A DNA stretch of 64,000 nt from Methylophilus sp. TWE2 (lineage in GTDB: Bacteria; Pseudomonadota; Gammaproteobacteria; Burkholderiales; Methylophilaceae), in assembly GCF_001183865.1 (NCBI RefSeq), contig NZ_CP012020.1, forward strand, positions 2,661,839-2,725,838, given 5' to 3'. Shown here piece after piece: positions 54,320 to 63,160 of the stretch; the stretch's first letter is position 1; every line of letters starts with the position of its first letter. A program made the position numbers and the translations under genes. The notes beneath the pieces were generated by a model, which saw nothing but the letters and a program-made list of their open reading frames with translations, ran no database searches and was not told where the DNA came from.

Positions 54320-54484
54320 TTATAAATCAATAAACCCTATCGTAAACGCCAGAACCAGTAATATCGCCAACAATACACCTATGGCCCGGGCAGGATCAAT
54401 GCTCCAATCAACGGAGGCCAGACTCACCCGGCAGGCATGTGCGAGCATGAGGACAAACAGCACAAGGAGTAGCATACTTAACAT
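54320..54484 (-). CDS. Small membrane protein, 54 residues
   Basis: Short gene with a good ribosome-binding site (GGGAG, about eight bases before the ATG). It encodes two hydrophobic helices: MLSMLLLVLFVLMLAHAC and, after a short loop (SVDWSIDPARA), IGVLLAILLVLAFTIGFIDL. No family recognised. It lies downstream of motif copy A (54621-54638), which points toward it. The coding call rests on the start signal and the clear two-helix pattern. Confidence 0.65.
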   Translation of the reverse strand: MLSMLLLVLFVLMLAHACRVSLASVDWSIDPARAIGVLLAILLVLAFTIGFIDL

Positions 54485-54620
54485 ATCTTTCTCCCGCTCA
54501 AAAGTAATCAGTAATAACGATCAATTTGCCACGCTAAGATCTTTGCAACGCTAAACCCTTTGCAAAGTTAGATAAGCGCCATCATGCATTCGTCAACAAA
54601 CAATTTCGAGTCTATGAAGA

Positions 54621-54638
54621 CTGAATTTTCTGTAGGAA
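54621..54638 (-). promoter_or_regulatory. Motif copy A, TTCCTACA-N4-ATTCAG
   Basis: On the minus strand TTCCTACA, GAAA, ATTCAG. It lies 137 bp upstream of the small membrane protein at 54320-54484 and reads toward it. One of five copies in this end of the window. Confidence 0.55.
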
Positions 54639-54657
54639 AGATCGGACAGGATGCATA

Positions 54658-55107
54658 TTAAGACAAGATGAATGTTAAATAAGGCCCGACGCCTGTTTGG
54701 GAAATCGAATTCAAGGCTGCGCCAGCACTCTGTTGCTCACTTAAAGCAAGGTCGCCAAGTGAAACAATCCCCACCAGCCGGTGATCACGATCTACCACCG
54801 TCAATCGGCGAACTTGCAACTCACTCATATAACGGGCAGCCTCTTCAACCGGATAGTCATCAAAAATATATTCCACTTCCGAGGTCATCACCTGTTGTGC
54901 CCCGGTTTCCATAGGAGACAAACCTTCAGCAACGGCTCGAACGGTAATGTCACGGTCAGTCAGCAGACCGATTAACCTGTATTCTTCTCTCTCATCCGGA
55001 TTTTTAACTCTCGCCTGACCACGCCATCGTTGATTGTCAGGTATGGGATGAAAGTTGCGTAGGAAATACGAAGTTTTCAGCACAGCCCACGGAATTCTGA
55101 CAGGCAT
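54658..55107 (-). CDS. CBS-domain protein with atypical first CBS
   Basis: A 149-residue protein. A CBS domain normally comes as a pair. The second is intact here (VMTSEVEYIFDDYPVEEAARYM to LVGIVSLGDLAL), and the end of the first is recognisable (RLIGLLTDRDITVRAVAEG). The first 50 residues (PVRIPWAVLKTSYFLRNF onward) do not look like the start of a CBS domain, where REIMT-type sequence and its helix are expected. The N-terminus may have been replaced or frame-disrupted. Ligand would be an adenine nucleotide. Confidence 0.7.
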   Translation of the reverse strand: MPVRIPWAVLKTSYFLRNFHPIPDNQRWRGQARVKNPDEREEYRLIGLLTDRDITVRAVAEGLSPMETGAQQVMTSEVEYIFDDYPVEEAARYMSELQVRRLTVVDRDHRLVGIVSLGDLALSEQQSAGAALNSISQTGVGPYLTFILS

Positions 55108-55181
55108 ATCAGGGAAGCACCTATAAAAACAGTGTAGCAGTCAATGTATTTTGTTAACCATCCATTTTAAGGAGATTAAAA

Positions 55182-55346
55182 ATGCATATTGCGAACTTGG
55201 TCACTGACAGCCTGGGAGATGAAAACACCCATCCGGTGTTTCCCGATGAGAGCCACAAGCCCATCAAGCCAGATCCGGACACCCCCTATCAACCCACGGA
55301 ACCGGCAGAGCCCGATATCCAGCCGGAAATCATAGGAGATCAATAG
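55182..55346 (+). CDS. Small acidic proline-rich protein, 54 residues
   Basis: Short gene with a strong ribosome-binding site (AAGGAG, eight bases before ATG). The protein begins MHIANLVTDSLGDE and then runs into Pro- and Asp/Glu-rich sequence (PIKPDPDTPYQPTEPAEPD), ending in IIGDQ. Likely disordered. No family recognised. It ends three bases before the start of the P450 gene, so the two are almost certainly translated together. Confidence 0.7.
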   Translation: MHIANLVTDSLGDENTHPVFPDESHKPIKPDPDTPYQPTEPAEPDIQPEIIGDQ

Positions 55347-55348
55347 CG

Positions 55349-56602
55349 TTGGCGGCTTTACCTCAAGATACCGCCTTTGACAGTACCTTATCGCTGATAC
55401 GCAAGGGCTATCGGTTTATTTCGGACACATGTCGTGCGCTGGATACTGACGTATTTGAAACACGGTTATTATTCAGAAGCGTGATTTGCATGCGAGGTGC
55501 AGAAGCCGCCCGGATTTTCTACGATCCTGATAAATTTCTTCGTCATGGTGCCATGCCCACGCGCGCTCAAAAGACGTTGGTCGGCGTAGGCGGGGTGCAA
55601 AGCCTGGATGGTGCTGCCCATAGACACAGAAAGCACCTGTTTATCAGCCATTTGATGAATCATGAACGCATCAACGCGCTGGCAGAGCTTCATCGCATGC
55701 ACTGGCATTCAACATTAGCCCTATGGCCAATTCATGAGGAGATGGTGTTATTTGAGCATGCGCAAAACACCTTATGCCGATCTGTATGTGCTTGGGCGGG
55801 GGTGCCATTGCCACCCAGTGAGTGTAGCCGACGCGCAAAAGAGTTTGGACGAATGATTGATAGCGGGGCGCGTCTTGGATGGCATCACTGGCGTGGCCGC
55901 ATGGCAAGAAGTTCAAGCGAAAAATGGCTCATGGCCGAGATTGAAAAAATCAGATCAAGCAAACAGGAAGCAGCAACCAGCATTCTGCAAGCCTTTGCCT
56001 GGCATAGAGACGAACACGGTGACTTGCTCCCGTGCCACACCGCCGCTGTCGAGTTGATCAATGTGTTGCGCCCCACCGTGGCCATCGCCCAACTCGTGGC
56101 ACTCAGTGCGCTTGCTATTCACCAATATCCACACGTGCGGGAAAAATTACTCAACCAACATTCAGAATACCTTGACTGGTTTATTCTGGAGGTACGCCGG
56201 TTTTATCCTTTTTTCCCGTTTCTTGCGGCATATGCCCGCGAAGATTTCAACTGGAAAGGATGGCACTTCAAAAAAGGCACCTTGACCCTGCTGGACATTT
56301 ACGGAAACAATCATGACGGCCGACATTGGGAGCAGCCGGATGAGTTCAAGCCGGAACGCTTTAAAAATTGGTCGCAAGACGAGTACAGCTTTATTGCCAA
56401 TGGTGGCGCGACCTATGCAGAGCACCACCGCTGTCCAGGCGAATGGATTACCAACCGTTTAATGAAGGTGGCGCTTAAACTCCTGGTACAAAATCTTCGC
56501 TACACCGTACCCAAGCAAGATTTAAGTGTCTCGCTGGCGCGCATCCCTACTTTACCCAAGAGCGGGATGATTATTGCGCCACTCAGTTACTCTGCTTCAT
56601 GA
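55349..56602 (+). CDS. Cytochrome P450 of the CYP152 peroxygenase type
   Basis: A 417-residue P450. The heme-binding Cys is in GGATYAEHHRCPGEW. The I-helix segment LRPTVAIA lacks the usual acid-alcohol pair and carries the Arg-Pro found in CYP152 enzymes, which use H2O2 to hydroxylate or decarboxylate fatty acids. The ExxR motif is visible as EVRR. Start is TTG 55349, with AGGAG about ten bases upstream; no better ATG is close. It is preceded by the 54-residue acidic protein. The substrate is inferred from the family. Confidence 0.85.
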   Translation: MAALPQDTAFDSTLSLIRKGYRFISDTCRALDTDVFETRLLFRSVICMRGAEAARIFYDPDKFLRHGAMPTRAQKTLVGVGGVQSLDGAAHRHRKHLFISHLMNHERINALAELHRMHWHSTLALWPIHEEMVLFEHAQNTLCRSVCAWAGVPLPPSECSRRAKEFGRMIDSGARLGWHHWRGRMARSSSEKWLMAEIEKIRSSKQEAATSILQAFAWHRDEHGDLLPCHTAAVELINVLRPTVAIAQLVALSALAIHQYPHVREKLLNQHSEYLDWFILEVRRFYPFFPFLAAYAREDFNWKGWHFKKGTLTLLDIYGNNHDGRHWEQPDEFKPERFKNWSQDEYSFIANGGATYAEHHRCPGEWITNRLMKVALKLLVQNLRYTVPKQDLSVSLARIPTLPKSGMIIAPLSYSAS

Positions 56603-56898
56603 CCAACCGTATACCCGGCCTCAGTCAATGTGAAGGCTTCATCGACTGAGTAAATCCATCTCTTTGCTTTGGCATATTCCAACCCTTCGACAAGATCGGT
56701 TTGTCCCTTGTGTTTTTCGTACCAGGCGCCACTGAGCCTGACCGCCGTAAGGGTTTCCCCGGCAAACAGCCCGAAGTGATGCACGAAAATAACCGCGATC
56801 ATGCGCGCATTCTGCTCAGGGGAGTGAATGGTATCAGCGGCGGTCTCCTGATTGGGCAGCGCCTGATCCATCCCGGTTTCAGTTTCTTTAGTCACCAT
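56587..56898 (-). CDS. Hypothetical protein, 103 residues
   Basis: No family recognised. A soluble acidic protein with a polar N-terminus (residues 1-30), a central segment RMIAVIFVHHFGLFAGETLT and a C-terminal block ending LTEAGYTVGHEAE. It begins four bases after the stop of the DUF3309 gene, so it is probably the second gene of that transcript. It overlaps the convergent P450 gene by 16 bp at their 3' ends. Confidence 0.6.
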   Translation of the reverse strand: MVTKETETGMDQALPNQETAADTIHSPEQNARMIAVIFVHHFGLFAGETLTAVRLSGAWYEKHKGQTDLVEGLEYAKAKRWIYSVDEAFTLTEAGYTVGHEAE

Positions 56899-56902
56899 GG
56901 AT

Positions 56903-57055
56903 TTATTTTCCCGTCAATGCCAGCACCAGCAGAATAATGAGGATCAGCCCCAGCCCGCCACTGGGGTAATATCCCCAATTGGTGCTGTAAGGCCAAGTTG
57001 GCAAGGCACCGATTAAAGCAAGAATCAGAACTACCCAAAGGACTGTACTCAGCAT
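56903..57055 (-). CDS. DUF3309 family small membrane protein (copy 1)
   Basis: A 50-residue protein of the DUF3309 family: helix VLWVVLILALIGALP, the family signature TWPYSTNWGYYPSGGLG, helix LILIILLVLALTG. AGGAG precedes the ATG. Its paralogue is at 61129-61281. Function unknown. First gene of a two-gene unit downstream of motif copy B. Confidence 0.85.
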   Translation of the reverse strand: MLSTVLWVVLILALIGALPTWPYSTNWGYYPSGGLGLILIILLVLALTGK

Positions 57056-57124
57056 CACCGTCTCCTATGATTATGTGAATGTTTATAATGCCGGTAGAGA
57101 AAGGCATGCGCCATGCATATTCAG

Positions 57125-57142
57125 CTGAAATGATTGTAGGAA
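57125..57142 (-). promoter_or_regulatory. Motif copy B, TTCCTACA-N4-TTTCAG
   Basis: Minus-strand copy 70 bp upstream of the DUF3309 gene at 56903-57055, reading toward it. It forms a divergent pair with copy C, whose distance to its own gene is almost identical (71 bp). Confidence 0.6.
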
Positions 57143-57171
57143 TCAGCGGACACACTTTTTAAATCAGCCCT

Positions 57172-57189
57172 TTCCTACAGAAAATTCCG
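57172..57189 (+). promoter_or_regulatory. Motif copy C, TTCCTACA-N4-ATTCCG
   Basis: Plus-strand copy 71 bp upstream of the DUF421 gene at 57260, reading toward it. Divergently paired with copy B 29 bp away. Confidence 0.6.
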
Positions 57190-57259
57190 CTTTATCTGAT
57201 AAGTCCTCGGGGCTGCGGTTTTATAGCATGCGTTTATCGGAGTGATAAAAGGTTGATCC

Positions 57260-57739
57260 ATGGATAGTTCTACATTTCATTTATCCGTCCCTTTGCTCGA
57301 AATTATCTTGCGTGGCTCTGTTGTTTTTTGGTTTCTTTTTCTTATTTTCAGGTTGATTCTCAGACGCGATATGGGCAATGTGGGTGTAGGGGATTTTTTA
57401 TTTGTCGTGATTGTGGCTGATGCTTCACAGAACGCCATGACTGGCGAAGCAAAATCAATTGCCGATGGCCTGGTTTTAATTTCGGTATTGGTATTTTGGA
57501 ATGTATTAATTGATTGGCTCGGCTACCATCACAGATGGATCAAGAAACTGGTAGAACCTCCTCCGCTCATCCTCGTGCGCAAAGGCGTATTGCAAACACG
57601 CGCCATGAGAAAAGAGTTTATTAGCCGCGACGAGATTGAGGCCAAACTTCGTGAAGAAGGCATTGAGCATCTTTCACAAGTGAAACAACTGCAACTAGAG
57701 GCAGATGGTCAGCTCAGTATTATTCAATACGATAACTAA
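57260..57739 (+). CDS. YetF-like DUF421 membrane protein
   Basis: A 159-residue inner-membrane protein of the DUF421/YetF family. Membrane segments lie at about 12-35 (RGSVVFWFLFLIFRLILRR), 45-62 and 70-90. A conserved cytoplasmic domain follows with PPLILVRKGVLQTRAM and LREEGIEHLSQVKQLQLEADGQLSII. Function is unknown; some relatives respond to envelope or salt stress. Start lies 71 bp after motif copy C. Confidence 0.88.
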   Translation: MDSSTFHLSVPLLEIILRGSVVFWFLFLIFRLILRRDMGNVGVGDFLFVVIVADASQNAMTGEAKSIADGLVLISVLVFWNVLIDWLGYHHRWIKKLVEPPPLILVRKGVLQTRAMRKEFISRDEIEAKLREEGIEHLSQVKQLQLEADGQLSIIQYDN

Positions 57740-58045
57740 ACATGCACTTCTTCACAGTAACTGTTATGCTGCGACTATCAAAATAAATAAAATTAACATT
57801 TTTGCGGCAGACGCTACAGATGGGTTTTTATCTGCCGATACTGAAGTAGCAGTAGACAAGATTTTAATCAGAACACCAAGACGATATTCAGATAACCCTA
57901 AAAAAATGATGCCTATCACTCTTGCATTTTGCACCTACTCGATCACTTCCAGATTGCGCACGCTCATTACATAACCAATATAGGCCAGTGACGAATGTCC
58001 TGGCTTTTTTATTTTGGGCGATGTCGATAGATTAACGTTGGAAAG
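57740..58045. other. Intergenic region with a possible small minus-strand ORF
   Basis: This 306-bp gap separates the DUF421 and CSS-EAL genes. On the minus strand a GTG-initiated frame (57764-57934, 56 codons) encodes two hydrophobic segments (VIGIIFLGL and MLILFILIVAA), but no clear ribosome-binding site precedes it and I recognise no family. I do not annotate it as a gene. No terminator stands out. Confidence 0.4.
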
Positions 58046-59656
58046 ATGCATCACATGGACTATATTTTCAAGCAGGGTTGGCGACACAAGAAAATACTCG
58101 TCGGCCTGATTGTCTTCATCATTGTGGTGGCCGCATTCATCTCCATTTACCTGTCGTTAATCATTGCGCAAAACCAGGTCATCTCGAAAGAAACCAAACG
58201 CCTGCGCGACATTACAAATGGTGTACTGATGCGCATGAGTACTACCCGCGACCAGTTTGCCAACATCGTGAACCATTTCTCTTCTGTGCCAGAAAAGGAT
58301 GCCTGCTTACCTGAGCACATCCAGAAAATGCAGGAATTTAATGTCACGGGATTTTTCCTGCATGCAGTGGCCCATATCCAGGGTAGCCGGATTACATGTT
58401 CTTCCATGTCGGAAGTTTTTAATGGCATGGAACTCGGCCCGCCATTCCGGATAGAGCAGGACGGCACCCGGATGTGGGCGAATATCAAGGTTGCTGACTG
58501 GCAGAATCATCACTTGGTGATCATGGAAAAATCAGGGTGGGCCGTCGTCTTTGTGCCATCCCATGCAATTGAGGCCTTGAATGATACGGAAGTGTCTGTA
58601 GGCGTATTTGGCATTCTATCCCACCGCCTCTATATCTCAAAAGGGGAGATAGCGCAGGCATGGCTTACGAAATACCAGGGTAAGCAACCGCTTACCTTTA
58701 TCGATAAAGACCGCCAAACGCTGGTGTATATGGCGCCTAACAAACTGAACCTGACTGCCGTCGTCGCTGCCCTGCCACTCAAGGACACCAATCATGACAT
58801 TGTGACATTTATCCAGATCCTCATTCCGCTGGCCATGGTCGTGGGATTGGCGCTGGCAGGGCTGTTTGTCTACATGCAAAGAACCAGGTACTCTACCAAA
58901 TCGGCCATTTTGCGGGCGTTGGCCAACAACCAGTTTTATCTGGAATACCAACCGATCATGAATCTGCATCTCAACACTTGCGTCGGTGCCGAGGCATTGA
59001 TTCGATGGAAAACGCCGGACAATACATTTATCAGTCCGGATACCTTTATTCCTGCCGCAGAAGCCTCCGGCGTCATCTGCCAGATTACACGGCGTGTGTT
59101 TGAAATCGTGGCGAGGGATATGCGCAATGCATTTGCCATGCACCCCGACTTCCATGTTGGGATCAATATCTCCTCCCACGATATCCGTTCAGGCGAGCTA
59201 CTAGGACTGATCAAGAGCCTGATAAAATCGTCCGGCGCTCAAGGCAAACAGATCCTGATTGAAGTCACCGAACGCGGTTTCCTCGATGATGATGAAGCAC
59301 TGACCACCATCAAAAATATCCGCGACTGCGGCGTACGCGTGGCGATTGATGACTTTGGCACCGGTTATTCCAGCCTGTCTTACCTGACCAAGTTCCAGCT
59401 GGACTACCTGAAAATTGACAAGACATTTGTGGATTCCGTCGGCACAGATGCCGTGACCAGCCATGTCGCGTTTCATATTATCGAAATGGCCAAAACGCTC
59501 AAACTGGATATGGTGGCTGAAGGAGTGGAAACGGCCACGCAGGCAGACATCTTGCAGTCACGCGGTGTGCATCATGTGCAAGGCTGGCTGTATTCAAAAT
59601 CGCTTAAACGCAAAGAGTTTTATGCTTATCTGGAAAAGCATAGCCAGCCTGCTTAA
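58046..59656 (+). CDS. CSS-motif EAL cyclic-di-GMP phosphodiesterase
   Basis: A 536-residue phosphodiesterase. Membrane helix at about 15-40, a periplasmic domain with the redox-sensitive CSS motif (ITCSSMSEVF), and a second helix (LIPLAMVVGLALAGLFVYM). A C-terminal EAL domain follows (EALIRW, DDFGTGYSS and the KIDKTFV segment present). There is no GGDEF domain. In Escherichia coli such CSS proteins form disulfides under Dsb control that hold the enzyme inactive; whether this applies here is inferred. ATG 58055 (MDYIFKQG) is an alternative start. Confidence 0.92.
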   Translation: MHHMDYIFKQGWRHKKILVGLIVFIIVVAAFISIYLSLIIAQNQVISKETKRLRDITNGVLMRMSTTRDQFANIVNHFSSVPEKDACLPEHIQKMQEFNVTGFFLHAVAHIQGSRITCSSMSEVFNGMELGPPFRIEQDGTRMWANIKVADWQNHHLVIMEKSGWAVVFVPSHAIEALNDTEVSVGVFGILSHRLYISKGEIAQAWLTKYQGKQPLTFIDKDRQTLVYMAPNKLNLTAVVAALPLKDTNHDIVTFIQILIPLAMVVGLALAGLFVYMQRTRYSTKSAILRALANNQFYLEYQPIMNLHLNTCVGAEALIRWKTPDNTFISPDTFIPAAEASGVICQITRRVFEIVARDMRNAFAMHPDFHVGINISSHDIRSGELLGLIKSLIKSSGAQGKQILIEVTERGFLDDDEALTTIKNIRDCGVRVAIDDFGTGYSSLSYLTKFQLDYLKIDKTFVDSVGTDAVTSHVAFHIIEMAKTLKLDMVAEGVETATQADILQSRGVHHVQGWLYSKSLKRKEFYAYLEKHSQPA

Positions 59657-59691
59657 TAATCATTGTTTCACTAATGTGAGTGACTACTCAC

Positions 59692-60639
59692 TTAATGCAT
59701 CGCCTGCCTGATTTCAATCAGTGTCTGTGCAATCTGTGATTTTAATTTCTCATTGTTTCCCGCAATTGCCAATCCTTTTTGGGCCACCGTCTCCGCCTGT
59801 ACAATCTCTTTTTGGGCAAGCAATACATTGGCAAGATTATTGTAAGCCGCCGCTGAATCGGGATGCACTTCCGTCATATGCCTGAAAGTCGCGGCCGCCA
59901 AAGGCAAATCGTTCGTGGCATAGGCAGCATTCCCCAGCCCCATCAACAAAACCTGATGATCCGGCCATTTATCCACGGCGGACTGGTACGCCTTTTTTCG
60001 ATCTGTGGCAGAAGCATTTTTTTCATACGTCACCAAGGCTTTTGCCACCTCATCCGCACTGACGCTAGCTGGCAGTTTGCCTGGGGGCAGCGCCACAAAA
60101 GCCCAATGCTCGCTACGCGCCCAGGTGCGCTGGAAGGCGTTCAAAGACATTTCAAAGCGTTCAAATGTCCCTGAGCGCAGCCAGACCAATTCTTTATCCA
60201 GGTCGTAACCCACTACTACCGCATAGTGCCACGAAGGTACCCATGAAAATCCCAGATTCTGCATGACCACGACGACGTTGCCAGCCGAAACCTCTTGTAT
60301 CACCGCTTCCAGCTGCGGCGGGATTTGCACTGCCAGGGCGCCATGGCGTCTTGCGGCGGCGAGCATTTCAATCTGTAGACTACCTTGCCTGCTTGGCACA
60401 TACACTTCTGGCGTCAATTGATCAGGCGTGACTGGTATATCAACTGCGGTTAAAGCAGTCGCCAACGCGGCTGGACCACACTGGTATTCTGCTTGCGGGA
60501 AGAATGGGGTACTTGTGAGCTCGGCATGGCGCGGTAACTGTGTGTTCTGTGTTGTCTCACGCACACCGTTGGCCGCGCATGCGGTTAGCAGGCAGAAAAA
60601 AGCCAGTATGCAAATACGTAACACGCTGGCTTTGATCAT
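59692..60639 (-). CDS. PA2778-like cysteine peptidase lipoprotein with TPRs
   Basis: About 315 residues. From ATG 60639 there is a lipoprotein signal with lipobox LLTAC. The peptidase-C39-like domain has the active Cys in QCGPAALATAL and the His in SWHYAVVVG. A C-terminal region with TPR-like repeats (AAYNNLANVLLAQKEI) follows. Matches the PA2778 family of unknown function. The frame continues upstream to 60687, overlapping the PA2779 stop in a TAATG junction. Third gene of the DUF3309-PA2779-PA2778 run. Confidence 0.82.
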   Translation of the reverse strand: MIKASVLRICILAFFCLLTACAANGVRETTQNTQLPRHAELTSTPFFPQAEYQCGPAALATALTAVDIPVTPDQLTPEVYVPSRQGSLQIEMLAAARRHGALAVQIPPQLEAVIQEVSAGNVVVVMQNLGFSWVPSWHYAVVVGYDLDKELVWLRSGTFERFEMSLNAFQRTWARSEHWAFVALPPGKLPASVSADEVAKALVTYEKNASATDRKKAYQSAVDKWPDHQVLLMGLGNAAYATNDLPLAAATFRHMTEVHPDSAAAYNNLANVLLAQKEIVQAETVAQKGLAIAGNNEKLKSQIAQTLIEIRQAMH

Positions 60640-60686
60640 GCGCCTGTCAACCAACCTCGCGTAGAAATTGTCGGCAAAAAATAGCA

Positions 60687-61085
60687 TTAGCGCACTGAGC
60701 GGGTGAAAGGGAAGATTTTTGTAAAGCCCAGGATATCAGTCAACAGCAATACCAGGAATACCAGCACAATCGCACCAATAATGCCGCCACCGGCCGGTGC
60801 TTTATCCATTTGTGATGCGAGGTTGCTAGCTTCTTCATCCGTCAGTGCAGCCACGCGAGATTTGGCCTCTACCGGATCGATGCCACGCTTCACCAGTTCG
60901 GTCTGCACCTCATCTCTAGACAACATGCTGACAATTTTTGCCCTGTCCTGATCCCCTTTTGCGGAGATGGTAGACTGTGCGACCTGTTCAGTACTGATCA
61001 TGGCCGCCTGGACAGCCTGCATTGAGCCGGTAAATAACATGGATGCCACCAAAAAGGCGCTTAATAAACGTTTAGCCATCATCAT
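60687..61085 (-). CDS. PA2779 family membrane protein
   Basis: About 132 residues. Signal-type N-terminus (LLSAFLVASMLFTGSMQAVQA), a middle region with MLSRDEVQTELVKRGIDPVEAKSRVAALTDEEA typical of the PA2779 family, and a C-terminal membrane helix (IIGAIVLVFLVLLLTDILGF). AAGGAAC lies before the ATG. Usually found next to the PA2778 peptidase, as here, which suggests a functional pair in the envelope. Confidence 0.85.
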   Translation of the reverse strand: MMMAKRLLSAFLVASMLFTGSMQAVQAAMISTEQVAQSTISAKGDQDRAKIVSMLSRDEVQTELVKRGIDPVEAKSRVAALTDEEASNLASQMDKAPAGGGIIGAIVLVFLVLLLTDILGFTKIFPFTRSVR

Positions 61086-61128
61086 GATCTTGGTTCCTTT
61101 GTATTGAGAGTGAATGGACAGTTGAGCA

Positions 61129-61281
61129 TTACAGCCTGCCGGTGAGCGCAAGTATGAGCAATATTAAAACGATTAGACCGAGACCTCCACTTGGATAATA
61201 ACCCCAGCCAGCACTATAGGGCCAGGTGGGCAATGCACCGATTAATGCCAATATTAGAATCAGCAGCAATATCGTCCTCAT
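61129..61281 (-). CDS. DUF3309 family small membrane protein (copy 2)
   Basis: A 50-residue paralogue of the protein at 56903-57055. It has TILLLILILALIGALP, the signature TWPYSAGWGYYPSGGLG and a second helix LIVLILLILALTG. It is preceded by TAGGAG. It lies just upstream of PA2779 on the same strand and downstream of motif copy D. Confidence 0.85.
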   Translation of the reverse strand: MRTILLLILILALIGALPTWPYSAGWGYYPSGGLGLIVLILLILALTGRL

Positions 61282-61613
61282 AACAATAGTCTCCTAACGC
61301 AACATATTGCCGCTTGCGCTGGCAATGGTTTTGTAATGTGTGAGGCCTCATCATGCAGGGACGCAAAACCAGACACCATGCCAGTATTGCTGAATCTGTT
61401 GTAGGAATACTCTGATTTTTTATTGAACACCTTGAAACCACGCCATGCCATGCAGGAATGCTTCGTTTGCAGGCTGTTATTTTTCGCAGGGGGCTTACCG
61501 GGCACATCCGCCGATGCTGCGCGATGGATGACAGGGCTGTGAGGGAAAGAGAAAAATTCGAGGGGTGATCTGGGATTCAGGATGAATTAACAGAGGAAAA
61601 CACAGTGAATGTG
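61282..61613. other. Intergenic region upstream of DUF3309 copy 2
   Basis: A 332-bp gap that holds motif copy D at 61390-61407. Two short minus-strand frames cross it, but neither has a convincing start signal or a protein-like composition. Nothing else recognised. Confidence 0.5.
61390..61407 (-). promoter_or_regulatory. Motif copy D, TTCCTACA-N4-ATTCAG
   Basis: Minus-strand copy 109 bp upstream of the DUF3309 gene at 61129-61281, reading toward that gene and the PA2779/PA2778 genes. Confidence 0.6.
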
Positions 61614-62399
61614 TTAACCATGTGCATTTATCTTATCAAGCTCAATATTATTTTCCGTGGCGTGACATTCCAGAATGTCTACTTCCCTTTTGTTAAAGCT
61701 TAACTTTTCCGCCGTATTGATGTTACTGGCAAATTTATTATCCAGCTCACCACATTTGCGGGAACGCTGAAGGACAAAATTCAGATAGTCCTTTTTTCTG
61801 GCCTCTATTTGCGAAGGCGACAGCGCACTGTCGTTCATAAAAGTGGTGTAAGCACTCCTTAAGCGCAGCTCGGACACGCTCCAGATATTAAACACAAGCA
61901 TGTTTGTGGAGGCGTTTTCGGGAGAAACAGACTCTGACGAGGTGTTGGCATGACCGGCCTTGTCCTGACCGGTGGATGCCGGACTGGTACGCACACTCAC
62001 TACAGGCCCTGACGCTAACACTGGTGAGACTTCGACTTTTTTGGGCTGCTTGTCGCTTGTTTTGGAGGTCACTTTTGGTAGGGCAGTTGTCTCCACTTCA
62101 GGAACATTACTTTCCTGTAATGCCCCTGGCGCCTCTATGTCAACTTCAGGAGCTTCCGCTTGCACTATCTGCGACTGCAGACGTGGTGCGGCGTGAGAAA
62201 AAGCTGCTGTTGGCTCTTCCTTGGCAATCAGTGTAAACAATATCACCACAATCAGGCCAATCAGAATGAGGTTGATTTTTCCAATCTCAATCGCGCCACC
62301 CTCACGACGAAATGACCTGGTTACAGGTTTTTCACCTGAAGGCAGCCAGGGCGACTTATAGGCGGCCTCTATATCTTTGCAATGAAGCATATTTCTCAT
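61614..62399 (-). CDS. Membrane-anchored hypothetical protein
   Basis: A 261-residue protein of no recognised family. One membrane helix (INLILIGLIVVILFTLIA) near residue 42-60, a long Pro/Thr/Ser/Glu-rich linker (about 65-170) and a helical C-terminal domain rich in Lys, Glu and Arg containing two Cys (RKCGELD and ILECHATE). Likely a bitopic inner-membrane protein with a periplasmic C-terminal domain. Start may be ATG at residue 1 or residue 4. Confidence 0.65.
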   Translation of the reverse strand: MRNMLHCKDIEAAYKSPWLPSGEKPVTRSFRREGGAIEIGKINLILIGLIVVILFTLIAKEEPTAAFSHAAPRLQSQIVQAEAPEVDIEAPGALQESNVPEVETTALPKVTSKTSDKQPKKVEVSPVLASGPVVSVRTSPASTGQDKAGHANTSSESVSPENASTNMLVFNIWSVSELRLRSAYTTFMNDSALSPSQIEARKKDYLNFVLQRSRKCGELDNKFASNINTAEKLSFNKREVDILECHATENNIELDKINAHG

Positions 62400-62579
62400 A
62401 ACCTCAATCGATTATGTTTTGATACCAATTTTTACTCAATGTCGAACAATGCCTCAAATCTGGCCAAGATTCAATCATCTGGGCCAATTCAATGATGTAT
62501 GCCATCACTGAAGGCGACTGAAAGTGCTATTGTATTCTTTTAAATGGGAATGTGTAACGCAGAAAAAAGAGGGGATTGC

Positions 62580-62990
62580 CTAGATTTGAATGAGATGGGT
62601 TTGATTCGGTGATACGCTTGAGATGGCATAAACACGTGCAGGTCTGGAAGATGGCTGGGGATGACGATCAGAGGAATTGGCTGAATGCCTGTTGCCCTCA
62701 TTGCGTAACAAGGCATCTACGAAATAGCCTTTCCTGGCCTGTGTTTTTTGATGATCAGTCATATTCTTGCTGTCTGCCACAAGCGTGATGGTCATTGCTG
62801 GTCTCTCATGATGCAGGCTGGCCGTCAATTGCGAATTGCCACCTAAAGACATCATGGTCAAAAACAATCCGACAAACATGATGAACAACGCCACAGAGAC
62901 TGTGCCTGCCGTGATGGCAATCAAGGAAAGCACACTGGTGGTGGCAGCTGAATTTCTGCTTGGATGCGTACTTGCATGTGTTTTTTGCAT
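62580..62990 (-). CDS. Hypothetical single-pass membrane protein
   Basis: A 136-residue protein with one hydrophobic segment (TVSVALFIMFVGLFLTMMSLGG, about 30-51) followed by a polar, low-complexity tail rich in Ser, Arg and Pro. No family recognised. Motif copy E lies 81 bp upstream and points to it, which is the best evidence that the gene is real and co-regulated with its neighbours. Confidence 0.55.
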   Translation of the reverse strand: MQKTHASTHPSRNSAATTSVLSLIAITAGTVSVALFIMFVGLFLTMMSLGGNSQLTASLHHERPAMTITLVADSKNMTDHQKTQARKGYFVDALLRNEGNRHSANSSDRHPQPSSRPARVYAISSVSPNQTHLIQI

Positions 62991-63070
62991 GATGGAGTCC
63001 TCCCCTGTTTTAGCTTTTGCTCAGGTCACCATCTTGCGGCATCAGTCGCCCATCCCCTATCCCATTCCGG

Positions 63071-63088
63071 CTGAATCTCCTGTAGGAA
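63071..63088 (-). promoter_or_regulatory. Motif copy E, TTCCTACA-N4-ATTCAG
   Basis: Minus-strand copy 81 bp upstream of the gene at 62580-62990, reading toward it. Confidence 0.6.
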
Positions 63089-63160
63089 TTTGCTGACTTA
63101 GTGGCAAAATGATCTGCAACCTTTCTCACGTTATAATGAAAAATGCGTTAAGGAATCATC

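Follow-up and report, generated by a model that had tools for sequence, protein, structure and literature searches.

The 64,000-nucleotide stretch of the genome of Methylophilus sp. TWE2 analysed here (assembly GCF_001183865.1, contig NZ_CP012020.1, positions 2661839-2725838; hereafter, the window) contains five copies of an 18-bp motif, TTCCTACA-N4-WTTCMG, upstream of small envelope genes. These 18-mers are rather likely the cores of activator-dependent promoters bound by a GacA/UvrY-like regulator of the NarL/FixJ family, for which the protein encoded at genome positions 857769-858422, outside the window, is the likeliest candidate. Each 18-mer is composed of the right half of one operator (operator 1) and the left half of a second one (operator 2), located 22 bp downstream. 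The regulon is probably worked by a regulator with a decayed phosphate-sensing pocket, as judged from the residues of its receiver domain.

The five copies, designated sites A to E, are located at window positions 54621-54638 (minus strand), 57125-57142 (minus), 57172-57189 (plus), 61390-61407 (minus) and 63071-63088 (minus), exactly as given in the original prediction. The first 54 kb contain no exact copy, as had also been noted, and the remaining near-copies within the window carry two mismatches. In 100 dinucleotide shuffles of the window the motif was absent (mean 0.00, largest 0). Across the single-contig genome (3,079,044 bp) there are exactly seven exact 18-mers, versus one for the reversed pattern; all seven are located within 2716459-2731376 (14.9 kb), two of them just past the end of the window, and the post hoc bound for such clustering under uniform placement is about 1e-13. 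With up to two mismatches, 39 + 47 matches were found genome-wide, little more than in the control (37 + 34), and the near-copies concentrate at 848-868 kb, in a second cluster containing genes for DUF2383, Yip1, cytochrome c and BON proteins. The regulon, proposed earlier as either local or genome-wide, is thus local and also reaches further, since weaker copies are present at 848-868 kb and a site precedes a BON-domain gene in another genus. Neither random intragenic copies nor a lack of upstream conservation was seen in this genome. The presence of seven copies in one 15 kb region could recall a dispersed repeat, but the probability of a repeat or of chance is negligible: only discrete columns are conserved among 79 aligned sites while the spacers vary freely, the shuffles give no copies, and conservation across genomes contradicts both explanations.

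The architecture of the sites was derived from complementarity between columns, calculated at 121 possible centres for 60 exact sites of the genus Methylophilus. The best centres were -0.5 (0.49) and 21.5 (0.41), with a mean of 0.26 and a standard deviation of 0.05, and the top dyad comprises columns -9 to 8, forming a 6-6-6 inverted repeat. The dyads ranking first and second are 22 bp apart, so that the 18-mer spans the two facing half-sites of a tandem pair of inverted repeats. Site selection was confined to columns 1-18, which left both outer arms unconstrained (the left one of dyad 1 and the right one of dyad 2). Two centres of 0.52 and 0.43 were obtained in a second genus-wide test, from which eight loci with the exact 18-mer and, by eye, none of the longer composite described below were excluded. 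Both centres recurred in the seven sites of the TWE2 genome (0.50 and 0.45, a third following closely at 0.43), and 79 aligned composites (one of 80 hits dropped out of the alignment) gave 0.53 and 0.41, the second value being partly selected for. The column consensus of operator 1 in these composites is TGTCCG-N6-CCTACA. Read alike, its halves differ (TGTCCG versus TGTAGG), which is still compatible with a homodimer.

An activator of another family, such as AraC or OmpR, acting on direct TCMG repeats 22 bp apart with the dyads being coincidental, would fit the asymmetry and single orientation of the 18-mer, the resemblance of RTCMG and WTTCMG to such repeats, and the presence, bordering the second region, of a gene that looks LysR-like by eye (845743-846642). 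This is nevertheless quite improbable, as dyad symmetry ranks first and second among the 121 centres, at the Gac-box spacing, and no AraC- or OmpR-type gene was recognised by eye in the two regions, where only part of the open reading frames (ORFs) was scanned. A single direct-repeat site of AraC or OmpR type was set aside because dyads were found.

Beyond the 18-mer, the alignment of the 60 exact sites revealed conserved columns GTCCGA (-8 to -3), ATRG (29-32) and GCATGAT (52-58). With the -10-like hexamer in columns 53-58 taken to define the transcription start, the dyads would be centred near -65 and -43, with ATRG spanning roughly -36 to -33 and GCATGAT roughly -13 to -7. The 18-mer itself would occupy about -64 to -47 and therefore is not a sigma contact. 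The earlier idea that it forms part of an alternative-sigma promoter consequently fails for the 18-mer, which is too far upstream, while ATRG and GCATGAT do occupy sigma-binding positions. An alternative sigma factor reading these two elements, with the 18-mer as an accessory, is highly improbable: both elements are conserved where sigma binds, and genes for sigma factors of the extracytoplasmic function (ECF) type are present near the second cluster, at 872247 and 873330, but GCATGAT resembles an ordinary -10 element, ATRG overlaps the right half of operator 2, and the most conserved columns, 1-18, are located upstream of the sigma contacts. The other idea of the original prediction, an operator or activator site, is well supported as an activator-type operator of a regulon, because the sites are promoter-proximal, have a single orientation, keep a fixed distance to the -10-like element and are conserved upstream of orthologues; the 18-mer, however, is not the binding unit.

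Conservation was assessed in 150 genomes of the family Methylophilaceae, of which 22 belong to the genus Methylophilus. The exact 18-mer is present in 24 of the 150 genomes, with 61 matches in 12 of the 22 genus genomes (control 8) and 21 matches in 12 of the other 128 (control 13). A 57-bp composite, TCCTACA-N5-TTCMG-N10-ATRG-N19-GCATNAT, was built from columns 2-58 and searched with up to three mismatches. In 720 kb of retrieved sequence, whose loci were mostly site-selected and in part overlapping, it gave 72 matches versus none for the reversed pattern; over the 22 genus genomes, 80 matches were found in 14 genomes, with none for the reversed control. The TWE2 genome contains eight composites, six of them in the first cluster, and the second cluster of stress genes is marked by the composite as well.

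The comparison with other Methylophilaceae confirmed that sites are conserved upstream of orthologous genes, namely those of DUF2383, BON and cytochrome c proteins. The DUF2383 genes of the second cluster carry a composite (up to five mismatches) in a similar position in 11 of 12 genomes; none was found before five DUF2383 paralogues outside the cluster. In 13 of 14 genomes, BON genes with at least 68% identity are preceded, at 73-100 bp, by an 18-mer-like match (up to four mismatches), while three weaker BON homologues have only matches with five or six mismatches. The cytochrome c gene is preceded by the site in 13 of the 14 composite-bearing genomes. Among eight DUF421 orthologues, the 18-mer is retained within one mismatch in four, TTCCTACA is kept with three mismatches in two, and it is absent from the other two.

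In another genus of the family, g11, the 18-mer precedes the BON gene in five of six genomes (for the sixth, two of three copies were read). These sites read GTAAG or GTCAG-N6-CCTACA-N4-WTTCAG, and the hexamer found at the same spacing is TANAAT. A variant of the BON site was also found in genome G048, which lacks the degenerate regulator described below and contains an exact 18-mer upstream of the operon of its canonical paralogue. Since BON sites occur in g11 and G048, both without the degenerate regulator, the BON promoter looks like the ancestral target, and the Methylophilus clusters look like an expansion.

In other genera, some exact copies lack this promoter context. Loci L037 (G030) and L055 (G001) of such genera each contain a single exact 18-mer upstream of a gene; judged from the translations, these genes encode a Ku-like DNA-repair protein and a small membrane protein. 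Within the genus, five of the eight loci excluded from the second dyad test (L133:5874, L134:5060, L135:5493, L139:4521 and L141:5014) have their exact 18-mer in another shared conserved sequence, containing CTGATAC and AAAATTTAAAT, and no composite; ORFs were viewed around two of these loci, and the shared sequence may be a promoter of another kind or a hotspot for insertions.

The motif-to-start distances given earlier, 137, 70, 71, 109 and 81 bp, fit the ORFs downstream of the five window sites, with ATG 57055 as the start of the first DUF3309 gene. The predicted DUF421 and two DUF3309 targets were likewise confirmed, and the two remaining small proteins have no Pfam family at E 0.001. Site A (minus strand) comprises operator 1, TGTCCGATCTTTCCTACA (54631-54648), in the dyad register ranking first of 121 centres in the genus alignment; operator 2, ATTCAGTCTTCATAGACT (54609-54626), the second dyad, 22 bp from the first; and the -10-like element GCATGAT (54581-54587), corresponding to columns 52-58, conserved in the 79 aligned sites. 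Its target (54320-54484, minus) encodes a 54-residue membrane protein without a Pfam family, and similar proteins of 54-56 residues are encoded behind the composite in other genomes of the genus. Site B (minus) contains operators TGTCCGCTGATTCCTACA (57135-57152) and TTTCAGCTGAATATGCAT (57113-57130) and the -10-like element GCATTAT (57085-57091), forming a composite with 0 mismatches upstream of a gene for a small DUF3309 membrane protein (56903-57055, minus; PF11752, E 3e-22).

Site C (plus strand) contains operators AATCAGCCCTTTCCTACA (57162-57179) and ATTCCGCTTTATCTGATA (57184-57201) and a candidate -10 element, TAGCAT (57224-57229), proposed from the upstream sequences of DUF421 orthologues; the target encodes a DUF421 protein with the YetF C-terminal domain (57260-57739, plus; PF04239, E 2.8e-15). 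This site is not among the composites because its downstream elements deviate. Site D (minus), with operators AATCAGAGTATTCCTACA (61400-61417) and ATTCAGCAATACTGGCAT (61378-61395) and the -10-like element GCATGAT (61350-61356), is a composite with 0 mismatches, followed by the second DUF3309 gene (61129-61281, minus; PF11752) and then by a DUF6627 gene (60687-61151; PF20332). Site E (minus), with operators AGTCAGCAAATTCCTACA (63081-63098) and ATTCAGCCGGAATGGGAT (63059-63076) and the -10-like element GCAAGAT (63031-63037), is a composite with one mismatch upstream of a gene for a 136-residue single-pass membrane protein (62580-62990, minus), similar to proteins encoded behind the composite in other genomes of the genus. 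A cytochrome P450-like gene (named by eye; window positions 55349-56602, plus) is also located in the first cluster, with no exact motif directly before it.

Targets across the genus were assigned by a script scoring ribosome site, start codon and length, and families were determined on one example each. An ORF begins 8-300 bp after the -10 element in 79 of 80 composites, and within 116 bp in 65 of these 79; the single composite without an assigned ORF is located at a locus edge. The script sometimes skipped a nearer small gene, as at site D, where the DUF6627 gene behind the DUF3309 gene was selected. Recurrent targets are genes for DUF3309, DUF6627, cytochrome c, DUF2383, hemerythrin, DUF2171, BON and Yip1 proteins, as well as for membrane proteins of 54-56, mostly 125-149, and 287-308 residues. 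In G000, the seventh exact motif is followed by a gene for a TIR_2-domain protein (L009:6075-7208, genome positions 2730074-2731219), an unusual envelope-stress member, and a similar TIR-domain protein is encoded behind a composite in G075.

The candidate regulator is a response regulator of the NarL/FixJ type with 217 residues, containing domains PF00072 and PF00196; its gene belongs to the second cluster and is separated from the DUF2383 composite by about 2 kb. In NCBIfam, the protein matches the UvrY/SirA/GacA family best (NF007018, 87 bits versus a cut-off of 280). The same family is the best match (181 bits) of a canonical paralogue, encoded at 2238392-2239018 in a DUF883/holin operon far from both clusters. 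The five active-site residues of the receiver are YGDNY in all 13 genus orthologues versus DDDSK in all 15 paralogues examined; that is, the aspartate is retained in the regulator, and four of the five residues, namely the metal-binding pair, Ser/Thr and Lys, are lost. What we take to be the recognition helix, placed on the family alignment, reads IAPGSVSVFRSKILKKM in the regulator versus ISIKTVSTYRSRILEKM in the paralogue, in their commonest forms. Among 112 database relatives, the best 51 comprise 50 with YGDNY and one with HGDNY, and farther relatives include DGDSK (4) and GGDNK (18). Relatives of the regulator were found in eight named records, all of Methylophilus, including M. methylotrophus DSM 46235 at 98% identity. 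The loss of receiver residues among the relatives is graded, and degenerate receivers are not confined to Methylophilus, as the GGDNK set includes a protein of Methylotenera sp. (P0060).

Orthologues of the regulator with at least 60% identity were found in 13 of the 22 genus genomes. Genome G099 contains it in two pieces (59% and 69% identity; G099:C1:2301221-2301866), reflecting a frameshift or an assembly error. The 13 genomes with a whole copy and G099 are exactly the 14 genomes bearing composites; the other eight contain only relatives of at most 44% identity and no composite. The five composite sites of G099 match those of its close relative G087. No other genus in the family sample has the regulator at 60% identity or above, and the g11 genomes contain only relatives of 40-42% identity. 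In a midpoint-rooted RpoD tree of 21 of the 22 genus genomes (G120 had no match at the threshold, and some supports are weak), the bearers fall into one group, which also includes G145, an 80% complete assembly lacking both regulator and composites.

Several observations weigh against assigning the sites to this regulator. On this tree, co-occurrence would amount to about one phylogenetic gain rather than many independent events, and for this reason we can only infer the binder of the sites. Two tested targets, DUF421 and DUF2383, are also missing from the eight regulator-less genomes, so site loss could follow gene loss. Related BON-gene sites occur in g11 and G048 without the degenerate regulator, G036 has the regulator and a single composite, two of the eight DUF421 orthologues have no good site, and no site was seen before the regulator's own gene in the TWE2 genome. 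As for the operators, only a small margin separates the second dyad (0.41) from the third-best centre (0.37), and operator 1 is asymmetric, its left half being variable (TGTCCG in 16, CGTCCG in 6 and AATCAG in 4 of 52 sites).

The main rival explanation, according to which the canonical phosphorylatable paralogue alone binds the sites and the degenerate regulator is a bystander, would account for the BON sites of five of the six g11 genomes and of G048, for the exact 18-mer upstream of the paralogue's operon in G048, and for the occurrence of relatives of the paralogue's kind in other genera. It is considered unlikely, though worth serious attention: the eight genus genomes without the degenerate regulator have no composite, although six of them have a relative at the paralogue's identity level; the left half TGTCCG or CGTCCG, present in 22 of 52 sites of the bearing genomes, was not observed in any of the five g11 BON sites; and the paralogue gene is distant from both clusters in the TWE2 genome.

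According to the preferred reading, with the degenerate regulator as the binder, two of its dimers would bind the two inverted repeats, with centres 22 bp apart at about -65 and -43, and would bring RNA polymerase, probably carrying the housekeeping sigma factor, to promoters with a poor -35 element and a -10 element of the GCATGAT type. Because the metal-binding pair, Ser/Thr and Lys are lost, the regulator would act without phosphorylation, being controlled by its own amount or by a partner, and the regulon would comprise small envelope and stress genes. In a more elaborate and doubtful scenario, the duplicated regulator heterodimerises with the phosphorylatable paralogue on asymmetric tandem operators and took over an envelope-stress regulon in the absence of RpoS, new promoters having arisen in a burst within one 15 kb island. 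The same scenario would include duplication within the Methylophilaceae and a stepwise loss of the pocket, presumably in the order DDDSK, DGDSK, GGDNK and YGDNY. The asymmetric operator with its single orientation is the only hint of a heterodimer.

A search of the genome for Sigma70_r2 gave 15 matches, 13 of them over the cut-off. The best four proteins are RpoD (named by eye), RpoH, RpoE and FliA, and the others, with 166-203 residues, have the size of ECF factors. RpoS was not detected in the genome with Sigma70_r2 or an RpoS model, for which the RpoH protein scored 182 bits versus a cut-off of 379. Judging by their family names, the target families appear to be of the general-stress and envelope type. 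Since no RpoS was found and the targets are of this type, the regulon may take over part of the role of RpoS in the general stress response.

The results suggest a promoter code open to testing and point to a candidate regulator of the uncharacterised small envelope proteins DUF3309, DUF421, DUF2383 and DUF2171 in methylotrophs; they also supply a natural series in which the decay of a receiver's phosphorylation pocket, with its link to a regulon preserved, can be studied. Neither a description of this regulon nor any regulon of an atypical response regulator of the Methylophilus lineage was found in the open-access full-text literature searched, a body that mostly excludes subscription papers.

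Among known systems, the half-sites of EvgA and BvgA, TTCYTACA and TTTCCTA, resemble TTCCTACA, and BvgA binds as tandem dimers about 22 bp apart; the regulator differs from EvgA in its NCBIfam EvgA score (60 bits versus a cut-off of 251). BldM of Streptomyces belongs to the NarL-type family. BldM and BldM-WhiI are described in PMC4125116 as atypical response regulators acting on promoters, with a non-palindromic site of which one half is that of the homodimer. The half-site letters and the organism are different here, and a heterodimer is only a possibility. A pseudo-receiver is defined in PMC12632262 by at least one of the five conserved receiver residues missing, and by this definition the receiver of the regulator is a pseudo-receiver. 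It shares with atypical response regulators the loss of conserved active-site residues, four of five in this case, but differs in keeping the aspartate.

The closest comparison is with the Gac box of GacA/UvrY, given as TGTAAG-N6-CTTACA in PMC4950607 and PMC11837529. The column consensus TGTCCG-N6-CCTACA departs from these letters: the left half mostly differs, TGTCCG being the commonest form. Further differences are the second repeat 22 bp downstream, the protein-gene targets and the scores of both regulators under the family cut-off, while the 6-6-6 inverted repeat upstream of the promoter and the right half CYTACA are the same.

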